From contig JAAYJU010000139.1 in the NCBI GenBank assembly GCA_012522735.1, positions 1-60,297 on the forward strand: 60,297 nt of DNA. Direction: 5' to 3'. The notes under the pieces are model-generated. The model made no database searches and was not told the DNA's origin. It worked only from the letters and a program-made list of their open reading frames with translations. Each line of letters begins with the position of its first letter. The stretch's first letter is position 1. Source of the DNA: Clostridiales bacterium (GTDB lineage: Bacteria > Bacillota > Clostridia > Lachnospirales > Lachnospiraceae). Below, piece by piece: positions 5,840-43,425 of the stretch. Made by a program: the position numbers and the translations under genes.

Positions 5840-5895
5840 CCTCCTAAAATATTTTTATTTATATTGTTATCTCTCAACGGAGGTTTTGACCTCCT
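5840..5895 (-). promoter_or_regulatory. Duplicated SD/anti-SD leader unit, single copy, of gcvH
   Basis: On the minus strand AGGAGG-TCAAAA-CCTCCGTTG (5878-5895) forms a hairpin. After an AT-rich spacer the true Shine-Dalgarno AGGAGG (5840-5845) follows, 50 bp from the first GGAGG. The CCTCC could pair with either GGAGG. The same arrangement precedes four other genes in this window (16558, 27629, 28362, 43324). The repeat is observed; the switching role is inferred. Confidence 0.75.
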
Positions 5896-16432: not shown

Positions 16433-16557
16433 ATCTTCTTATGCCAACCTGCTCTCTCAATATTTTAAAATTATTATTTCATTTTCAAGTAATAATCTCT
16501 TTTTACTTTCTTCTTGTATATATTCTATCTTATTACAGACAATAAACATAAATAATT

Positions 16558-16669
16558 TACTAAGGAGGCTATTACCTCCGTTATTAGCTATTAAAACTAT
16601 AATTTTACTGAGGAGGCTATTACCTCCGTTATTAGCTATTAGAACTATAATTTTACTGAGGAGGTTATT
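16558..16669 (+). promoter_or_regulatory. Tandem 48-bp SD/anti-SD leader units before the 59-residue ORF
   Basis: Two direct repeats of exactly 48 bp, with one mismatch, begin at 16564 and 16612. Each carries GGAGG-CTATTA-CCTCCGTT followed by an AT-rich spacer. A third GGAGG at 16660 is the true Shine-Dalgarno, five bases before ATG 16670. Each unit can fold as a hairpin, and each CCTCC can pair with the GGAGG before or after it. It is the same family as 5840, 27629, 28362 and 43324. Confidence 0.85.
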
Positions 16670-16849
16670 ATGCATTTTGAGCCATCCAAAAAAACCTATT
16701 ATCGTTTCCCTTCCACAAAAAGCGTTGCCAAAATGGACAAGCAAATGTATTTTCCTGAAAAACCCGCCCATGCTACAGACGATTCTAATTATGATCATCC
16801 GACTAATTCTTATATGCCCGAAAGAGAACATAACTACGATTTTAAATAA
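16670..16849 (+). CDS. Small hydrophilic protein, 59 residues, unknown
   Basis: Translation gives MHFEPSKKTYYRFPSTKSV, continuing to YMPEREHNYDFK and a TAA stop. It is rich in Tyr, His, Lys and Pro and lacks a signal peptide or membrane helix. GAGGAGG lies five bases before the ATG, the ideal spacing, and the leader is the most regular example of the tandem SD/anti-SD repeat. The gene overlaps the end of traX (opposite strand) by 8 bp. I recognise no family. A 124-residue frame on the other strand runs through the repeats and has no binding site, so this strand is preferred. Confidence 0.65.
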   Translation: MHFEPSKKTYYRFPSTKSVAKMDKQMYFPEKPAHATDDSNYDHPTNSYMPEREHNYDFK

Positions 16850-27628: not shown

Positions 27629-27727
27629 CCTCCTCAATTAATTATATAGTTTAGATACTTACAACGGAGGTTTTACCTCCTCAATTAAATATATAGTTTA
27701 GATGCTTACGACGGAGGTTTTACCTCC
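27629..27727 (-). promoter_or_regulatory. Tandem 47-bp SD/anti-SD leader units of the GH31 gene
   Basis: On the minus strand GGAGG occurs at 27727, 27680 and 27633 (5' ends), exactly 47 bp apart. The first two are each followed by TAAAA-CCTCCGTYGTAAG, forming hairpins, and the third is the true Shine-Dalgarno of the GH31 gene. The two full units differ at only a few bases. They fill the gap between DUF624 and GH31 inside the operon. Confidence 0.85.
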
Positions 27728-28361: not shown

Positions 28362-28415
28362 CCTCCTAAGTAAACATAATTCTTTATTACATATATGACG
28401 GAGGATTTATCCTCC
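28362..28415 (-). promoter_or_regulatory. SD/anti-SD leader unit, single copy, of the DUF624 gene
   Basis: On the minus strand GGAGG-ATAAAT-CCTCCGTC (28415-28398) forms a hairpin, and the true Shine-Dalgarno GGAGG lies 49 bp downstream (28366-28362), just before ATG 28356. It belongs to the family at 5840, 16558, 27629 and 43324. Confidence 0.75.
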
Positions 28416-43259: not shown

Positions 43260-43287
43260 TTGCAAATTTACTGTATTTGTATACAAT
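43260..43287 (+). promoter_or_regulatory. SigA promoter of the ABC-F gene
   Basis: TTGCAA (43260-43265), 16-bp spacer, TACAAT (43282-43287). Transcription from here would include both SD/anti-SD units in a leader of about 137 nt. Confidence 0.65.
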
Positions 43288-43323: not shown

Positions 43324-43425
43324 GGAGGACAATTCCTCCGTTATAAGTATTAAAAAGTTATAGTTTATATAGGAGGACAATTCCTCCGTTGCATGTATTA
43401 AAAAGGTTACAATTTATATAGGAGG
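43324..43425 (+). promoter_or_regulatory. Tandem 48/49-bp SD/anti-SD leader units of the ABC-F gene
   Basis: GGAGG occurs at 43324, 43372 and 43421. The first two are each followed by ACAATT-CCTCCGTT and a spacer with TATTAAAAAG, so each folds as a GGAGG/CCTCC hairpin; the third is the true Shine-Dalgarno before ATG 43431. The promoter at 43260 shows that the units are in the 5' UTR. Confidence 0.85.

Follow-up and report, generated by a model that had tools for sequence, protein, structure and literature searches.

Short repeats carrying a second copy of the Shine-Dalgarno (SD) core stand directly before the true SDs of dozens of unrelated genes in the genome of a Lachnospiraceae bacterium, and the anti-SD arm of the repeat nearest the gene is in most cases fitted to that gene's own SD. 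This SD-matched arm is the main feature of the family and is absent from the earlier note on this DNA. By computation, the repeats are positioned before SDs, their arms covary with the true SD, and two alternative pairings are balanced in energy. Covariation with the true SD, fixed place, leader context, and near-equal predicted energies together speak for an RNA device limiting or switching translation initiation, and we consider it fairly probable that the repeats represent a genome-wide family of bistable, gene-fitted, ligand-free translation brakes located in 5' UTRs.

Layout of the repeats and their position in leaders

In the window, by which we mean the whole stretch of 60,297 nucleotides that was analysed, the pattern GGAGG-N3..9-CCTCCG occurs eight times, compared with a mean of 0.05 in 100 shuffled sequences, none of which reached eight. 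These units precede five unrelated genes (Table 1), singly in the case of gcvH and DUF624 and in pairs before the 59-residue ORF, GH31, and ABC-F; Pfam supports the four gene names. Each unit is composed of GGAGG (S), mostly 2-3 nt, and the arm NNNCCTCC (A), and is followed by a linker and then by the true SD, GGAGGNNN. The extra GGAGG that had been reported 47-50 nt upstream of the true SD is present at that distance in all five leaders, measured from the last unit, and the tandem pairs described before three of the genes are likewise found, those of the 59-residue ORF (units at 16564 and 16612) having a spacing of 48 bp with one mismatch. The CCTCC can pair with the GGAGG on either side of it, as had been proposed. 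The further claim that conservation continues beyond the stem held for CCTCCGTY, which is present in all eight units, and less fully for the longer TAAGTATYAAA, which the units share only in part.

Table 1. Repeat units, SDs, and promoter-like blocks of the window
Feature	Position	Strand	Details
Promoter-like block TTGTAT-N18-GACAAT	16514..16543	+	similar blocks upstream of orthologs; putative promoter
Unit 1 hairpin (GGAGG S, loop, anti-SD arm), 59-residue ORF leader	16564..16579	+	
Unit 2, SD-proximal hairpin, 59-residue ORF leader	16612..16627	+	arm TTACCTCC, 7/8 complementary to SD octamer GGAGGTTA, mismatch at +2
True SD GGAGG, 59-residue ORF	16660..16664	+	start 16670
59-residue ORF	16670..16849	+	no Pfam family; match nonetheless in 31 of 34 genus genomes
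Single unit before gcvH	5879..5894	-	arm AAACCTCC, 8/8 complementary to SD octamer GGAGGTTT
True SD of gcvH	5840..5844	-	start 5833
Unit 1 before GH31	27713..27727	-	
Unit 2 (SD-proximal) before GH31	27666..27680	-	arm AAACCTCC, 8/8 to SD GGAGGTTT
True SD of GH31	27629..27633	-	start 27623
Single unit before DUF624	28400..28415	-	arm AATCCTCC, 7/8 to SD GGAGGTTT, mismatch at +1
True SD of DUF624 gene	28362..28366	-	start 28356
Promoter-like block TTGCAA-N16-TACAAT before ABC-F	43260..43287	+	putative promoter; array between block and SD
Unit 1 before ABC-F	43324..43339	+	
Unit 2 (SD-proximal) before ABC-F	43372..43387	+	arm AATTCCTCC, 9/9 to SD GGAGGAATT
True SD of ABC-F	43421..43425	+	start 43431

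Throughout the genome of the window (G000) the same pattern has 122 matches, a few of them overlapping, against 8 for the reversed pattern. From the 100 of these 122 matches that were listed, 62 arrays with a CCTCCG unit were built, of which 52 lie directly before an SD, a start codon, and an ORF; three more reach the end of the contig first, and seven are exceptions. Among the latter, three (L006, L019, L055) have a further, altered unit before the SD, two (L025, L040) have a shortened linker, one L053 array has no SD or start in the approximately 150 nt remaining on its contig, and L007 has the appearance of a chance palindrome. These counts bear out the proposal that the leader repeats are a family located before start codons, which was tested by pattern searches with reversed controls, permutation tests, and pair counting rather than with a covariance model. 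Contigs of G000 often end in or beside arrays (e.g. C24, C60, C73, C122, C164, C189, C192, C195), and array lengths and counts may therefore be underestimated.

Twenty of the 46 array genes listed, besides those of the window, were scanned for protein families. They include purM, murD, carB, serC, rubrerythrin, lgt, araA, nusB, aroQ, pheS, pyrF, murI, glgA, ispF, ileS, gpsA, and fliE, as well as a gene for a beta-CASP nuclease-like protein (scoring below the curated cut-offs); no family was found for two of the 20. The 22 named array genes serve general metabolism, cell wall, translation, and motility, and because they have no common pathway, control by a specific metabolite is unlikely.

Several features suggest that the units lie inside 5' UTRs, since promoter-like blocks and, in one case, a T-box stand upstream of them. 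The first GGAGG of the 59-residue ORF is 20 nt downstream of its promoter-like block (which a consensus promoter scan left unflagged), and 16 of 22 ABC-F orthologs with a plain SD share the block TTGCAA ... TACAAT. Upstream of ileS in G213, a T-box (L246, 1177-1419) is matched with 64 bits (E 1.2e-13), and the match ends 24 nt before an altered unit (CCTCT); the scan at gathering thresholds missed it because the Rfam cut-off is 93 bits. A promoter inside the unit itself, in the form of a TATAAT-like stretch before the SD, was rejected, as the linkers of 158 units contain no conserved hexamer.

Arms matched to the SD of their own gene

The NNN of the arm NNNCCTCC is complementary to the three bases that follow the true SD of the same gene (GGAGGNNN). 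This was examined in 45 of the 53 G000 arrays with an ORF, the other eight being omitted because the chosen SD was not exactly GGAGG. The complementary run was 2.73, compared with 1.17 when genes were permuted (5000 permutations, largest value 1.84). Complementarity at positions +1, +2, and +3 was 0.89, 0.96, and 0.93 (permuted 0.49, 0.61, and 0.75) and at +4 fell to the chance level (0.24 in both). Observed runs also exceeded the largest permutation in 33 arrays of G207 (2.97 vs 1.84), 21 of G213 (3.14 vs 1.35), and 29 from named contigs (2.62 vs 1.61), a set that includes G207 and G213 records from which identical sequences were taken out. Outside G000 it is positions +1 and +2 that show the excess; at +3, where there is little variation in these sets, it is small (observed/permuted 0.76/0.68 in G207 and 0.93/0.87 in named contigs) or, in the 21 G213 arrays, absent (0.90/0.91). 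The true SD is a better match for the arm than the neighbouring GGAGG is, and extension of the local hairpin past its core covaries weakly in G000 (0.98 vs 0.64 permuted, largest permutation 1.02).

Pair counting over the 8-bp arm:SD helix, in the last units of the same 45 G000 leaders, gave a similar picture. Three of five measures were higher than in all 500 shuffles: pairing (96.1% vs 84.9%), covariation (0.253 vs 0.070), and the number of two-sided cells (34 vs 12.4). No excess was seen in pairs with two-sided change (3 vs 2.6; 316 of 500 shuffles) or in further pair types (7 vs 5.6; 73 of 500). These two measures and the weak +3 excess outside G000 make the reading as translation brakes slightly less probable and its main rival, a templated origin of the match, slightly more so. 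Two rows shifted by one column (L005, L013) and two near copies (L015 and the second leader of L034) were kept in these counts. Sliding the partner by 1-3 columns lowered pairing to 42-64%. The idea that the arm can pair with the true SD is thus borne out by covariation reaching 3 nt beyond the GGAGG core.

The fit is frequent rather than universal. In four core sets, 113 of 144 last units match at least three bases in a row, 11 match two, 10 one, and 10 none, so that 31 fall below three. Rows from other genomes of the genus have the full 3-nt match in 19 of 27 cases, and some of the eight non-matching rows resemble chance or reverse-strand readings. Of the window genes, gcvH, GH31, and ABC-F have the full match, and the other two have one mismatch each.

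Comparison of orthologs also supports the SD-sequestering helix, which is a criterion for translational riboswitches. Arrays are present in at least two genomes in 37 ortholog groups, and in 19 of these the three bases after the SD differ; there, of three positions, an arm matches 2.67 in its own SD and 1.63 in that of the ortholog (92 ordered pairs, which are not independent, ileS alone having eight members). Every member keeps a 3/3 match in nine of the 19 groups, and in the other ten at least one member falls below it, such as carB of G207 with 1/3. The linkers of orthologs mostly diverge while the hairpin stays, although the hairpin, being the search criterion, is pre-selected. In one homologous pair, L032 of G000 and L212 of G207, the linkers are identical at 29 of 32 positions and both sides have changed together, from AAT/ATT to AAA/TTT, a double change that a new insertion would hardly account for.

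This constraint is confined to the last unit. The match of 80 upstream units to the true SD tracks the likeness of their linkers to that of the last unit, being 2.78 of 3 in near copies (n=36), then 2.91 (n=11) and 2.27 (n=22) as likeness decreases, and 1.91 (n=11, one not comparable) in units whose linkers are no more alike than random, for which the random expectation is 1.84. Nor are the 80 upstream arms fitted to the S that follows them (1.0 to 1.3). In multi-unit arrays, predicted SD accessibility hardly changes when the upstream units are removed (geometric mean 0.010 for the full array, 0.012 when the last unit stands alone; n=42). Across different genes with one, two, and at least three units, median accessibility shows a small rise at 37 C (0.015, 0.019, and 0.031) and no steady trend at 55 C (0.060, 0.112, and 0.081). 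The earlier suggestion that repeat number sets the level is therefore unsupported, and the upstream units probably arose as by-products when units were duplicated in tandem.

Distribution and origin of the arrays

The first search pattern, CCTCCGTT, found the family in few species, and a wider one revealed variants in more of the genus. With GGAGG-N3..7-CCTCC-N25..45-GGAGG and a reversed control, 34 genomes of the genus were surveyed. Matches (control in parentheses) numbered 156 (1) in G000, 107 (0) in G207, 91 (0) in G226, 83 (1) in G213, and 34 (0) in G218; these figures do not equal numbers of units, since tandem arrays of the palindromic unit are counted on both strands. Most other genomes of the genus had more matches than the control, and six (G200, G201, G212, G219, G220, G221) had none. 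Among 397 genomes of the bacterial family, G000 and G215 were the clear cases. Many GC-rich genomes were near the control level, and a few exceeded it, G370 by the most (17 vs 4); eight of these yielded 0-3 matches with a narrower pattern and by eye appeared GC-rich and coding-like. Two plausible single units were found in other genera of the family, L312 (1501-1570) with a matching arm and L326 (1501-1555) with a partial match. The narrower pattern, applied to 391 genomes of the class, gave 87 matches in G000 and 0-2 in every other genome, in a sample that held no other member of the genus. A viral collection searched for phage copies with one strict pattern yielded no match. In the genomes sampled, most of the family lies within one genus-level lineage, and its presence there is patchy between species.

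Arrays of other species in the genus often have shorter linkers (5-13 nt) and lack the tail GTTRTANGY, which is conserved in the clade of G000, and their arms usually fit the SD, as in carB (arm/SD ATT/AAT in G000 and G202, CTT/AAG in G203) and hisS (GTT/AAC in G214). Short-period arrays of three to six units with linkers of 8-13 nt precede carB and other genes (L335, L339, L344, L349, L354, L359). Among the matches listed, units occur in records of Herbinix sp. STF1_226, a member of the Lachnospiraceae, and of several Clostridiales MAGs. SHOH01 records (L067, L106, L126, and others), labelled Anaerolineaceae MAG4, have units at the same coordinates as G207, and this label is probably wrong.

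Arrays are missing or degenerate in many orthologs and are thus dispensable, a point against the reading as translation brakes. Fifteen orthologs of the 59-residue ORF were fetched; two units precede it in G000 and three identical units in G213, the G207 leader is masked, and the 12 others, including that of G226 (protein 90% identical), show a plain SD. Of 30 ABC-F loci fetched, those of G000 and G207 have arrays, that of G213 is cut off by the contig, five lack a located start, and 22 have a plain SD. On the ileS tree the presence of intact arrays is patchy, requiring six changes (three of them forced by well-supported branches) compared with a mean of 6.5 for shuffled labels, and is no more clustered than those labels; gain and loss are indistinguishable there. 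Altered or decayed units stand before ileS in L246 and L248 (CCTCT or incomplete arms), which suggests loss in some species.

The main rival explanation takes the arrays to be a self-forming or mobile repeat that has no regulatory role and could mimic the covariation. An inverted SD octamer, together with a copy of the preceding linker, would be inserted during replication or repair at the SD; the arm would match the SD by origin and later decay, and the gene would survive because an SD is regenerated by the start. We regard this as possible but on the unlikely side. It is fitted well by the decay of old upstream units, which match the SD at chance once they have diverged, and by the 8-nt edge, where complementarity, about 0.9 at +3, is down to the chance level at +4. 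Moreover, the first GGAGG of the ABC-F and 59-residue-ORF arrays lies at about the position of the SD in empty sites, the flank before the first GGAGG resembles the linker before the SD in some arrays, and the patchy presence on the ileS tree points the same way. On the other hand, 18 array genes are common to G000 (52) and G207 (47) among the loci fetched, indicating that many arrays were inherited. In addition, 152 of 158 units have G directly behind the arm, whereas A precedes the next GGAGG in 126 of 158, so that the arm is not a plain inverted copy. The shared genes, the non-complementary G, and the two-sided change in L032/L212 speak against a templated origin as the whole story. Nor do the counts of Y1 transposases, which accompany REP elements moved by a RAYT, track the arrays: G218 has 34 array matches and no Y1, and G200 and G205 have Y1 and no enrichment. 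Transposon target-site duplication was rejected on the same count, flank and linker being alike in some arrays and only weakly so overall. The two processes may also act together, a mutational process making the units and selection keeping the last one. A rather doubtful extension of this idea is a self-customising element, new copies of which would carry an 8-nt anti-SD matching the SD of the gene; ligand-free switches would in this way have been multiplied and lost within the genus, possibly as sensors of free 30S subunits, whose binding to S would release A onto the true SD.

Predicted energetics, proposed mechanism, and known systems

Returning to the reading of the arrays as translation brakes, we propose that each would function as a cis-acting translational control element within the 5' UTR. 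The SD-proximal unit provides S, the GGAGG copy of the SD core, and A, the 8-nt anti-SD arm, ahead of the linker and the true SD. In a first state A would pair locally with S, leaving the true SD free; in a second, A would pair with the true SD, which would be hidden while S is freed. Energies were predicted for 142 arrays, namely 145 of 171 with a match of at least two bases, minus three with masked bases. At 37 C the local hairpin has -9.38 and the A:SD helix -10.50 kcal/mol, and at 55 C the two are equal (-6.10 vs -6.09 kcal/mol). Because the two states are nearly equal in the standard energy model, S can be regarded as an anti-anti-SD and A as a sequestor. In silico SD accessibility in 88 full-match arrays was 0.010 when intact, 0.044 without A, approximately zero without S, and 0.026 with permuted NNN. 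Of the proposal that alternative pairing hides or frees the true SD, the arm:SD half is supported by the covariation; the local hairpin is present and nearly isoenergetic, and its extension covaries weakly. The units would be transcribed and would lower or switch translation in the cell. Any signal is likely to be global, because no aptamer is evident and the named genes share no pathway; it could be temperature, or 30S subunits occupying S or the SD, and otherwise the element would simply fix a low rate of initiation.

An RNA thermometer, in which the arm:SD helix prevails when cool and the local hairpin takes over on warming, agrees with the predicted difference between A:SD and local pairing, which is -1.86 kcal/mol at 25 C, vanishes at 55 C (0.00), and reaches +0.63 kcal/mol at 65 C. 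Accessibility, however, also rises with temperature in leaders without the array, and with similar steepness (medians at 37 and 55 C of 0.075 and 0.285 without the array and 0.019 and 0.080 with it), and none of the 22 named genes is a heat-shock gene. A thermometer is consequently possible but not indicated, and we consider it improbable. Still less credible is a role in mRNA stabilisation, whereby 5' hairpins and additional SD-like sites would shield the mRNA or retain 30S subunits upstream; S matches the SD core perfectly and in the 59-residue ORF leader lies close to the promoter-like block, yet this would leave unexplained why the arm covaries with the bases following the true SD. Tandem operators for a DNA-binding protein, to which the core and GTTRTANGY tail conserved in the clade might point, are highly improbable given the fixed place before the SD, the covariation with it, and linker lengths that differ between species, from 5-13 to 31-35 nt.

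The terms Shine-Dalgarno, ribosome binding, start codon, and Lachnospir are absent from the main text of a survey of bacterial stem-loop families (PMC2267715). No description of the array family appeared in the titles and abstract openings of the literature searched, in which few subscription journals are covered. At Rfam gathering thresholds the window contains two tRNAs and no riboswitch or thermometer family, and 15 related loci gave no gathering-threshold match and no thermometer family; around the array (16450-16750, E up to 5) only traJ_5 appeared, scoring 17.6 and 16.1 bits where the cut-off is 50. These scans of window and array found no conserved ligand-binding aptamer, and the linkers are poorly conserved.

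Of the known systems that the arrays resemble, REP and BIME elements are short palindromic repeats, many per genome and some in tandem. The arrays are likewise numerous short hairpin repeats, partly tandem, but lie directly before SDs, have a gene-matched arm, and show no link to a Y1 transposase. The STAB-SD of cry mRNAs is an extra upstream SD-like leader site, as is S; in the arrays, however, S lies within a hairpin whose anti-SD arm covaries with the true SD. A T-box leader accompanies one unit, that of ileS in G213, yet the units are separate from it: at this locus, the one tested closely, the T-box covariance model does not extend over the unit downstream, and units occur before many other genes. 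In fourU and ROSE RNA thermometers the SD is held in a helix, as is proposed here, whereas the arrays would have two helices in competition, gave no Rfam match in the window, and precede named genes that are not heat-shock genes. The expression platforms of translational riboswitches use anti-anti-SD, anti-SD, and SD pairing, and in them, as is proposed for the arrays, local pairing and SD sequestration are mutually exclusive. The arrays differ from them in having no aptamer or Rfam match, in preceding many unrelated genes, in a sequestor fitted to each SD, and in their tandem copies. Their patchy presence in close relatives makes the evolution of such a regulatory layer directly testable, and, if they are functional, many genes would come under a common type of translation control that needs no regulator protein. 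Single riboswitches and thermometers are the familiar examples of SD sequestration; the arrays would present it in a high-copy, lineage-specific form, before dozens of unrelated genes and with a fit to the SD of each.
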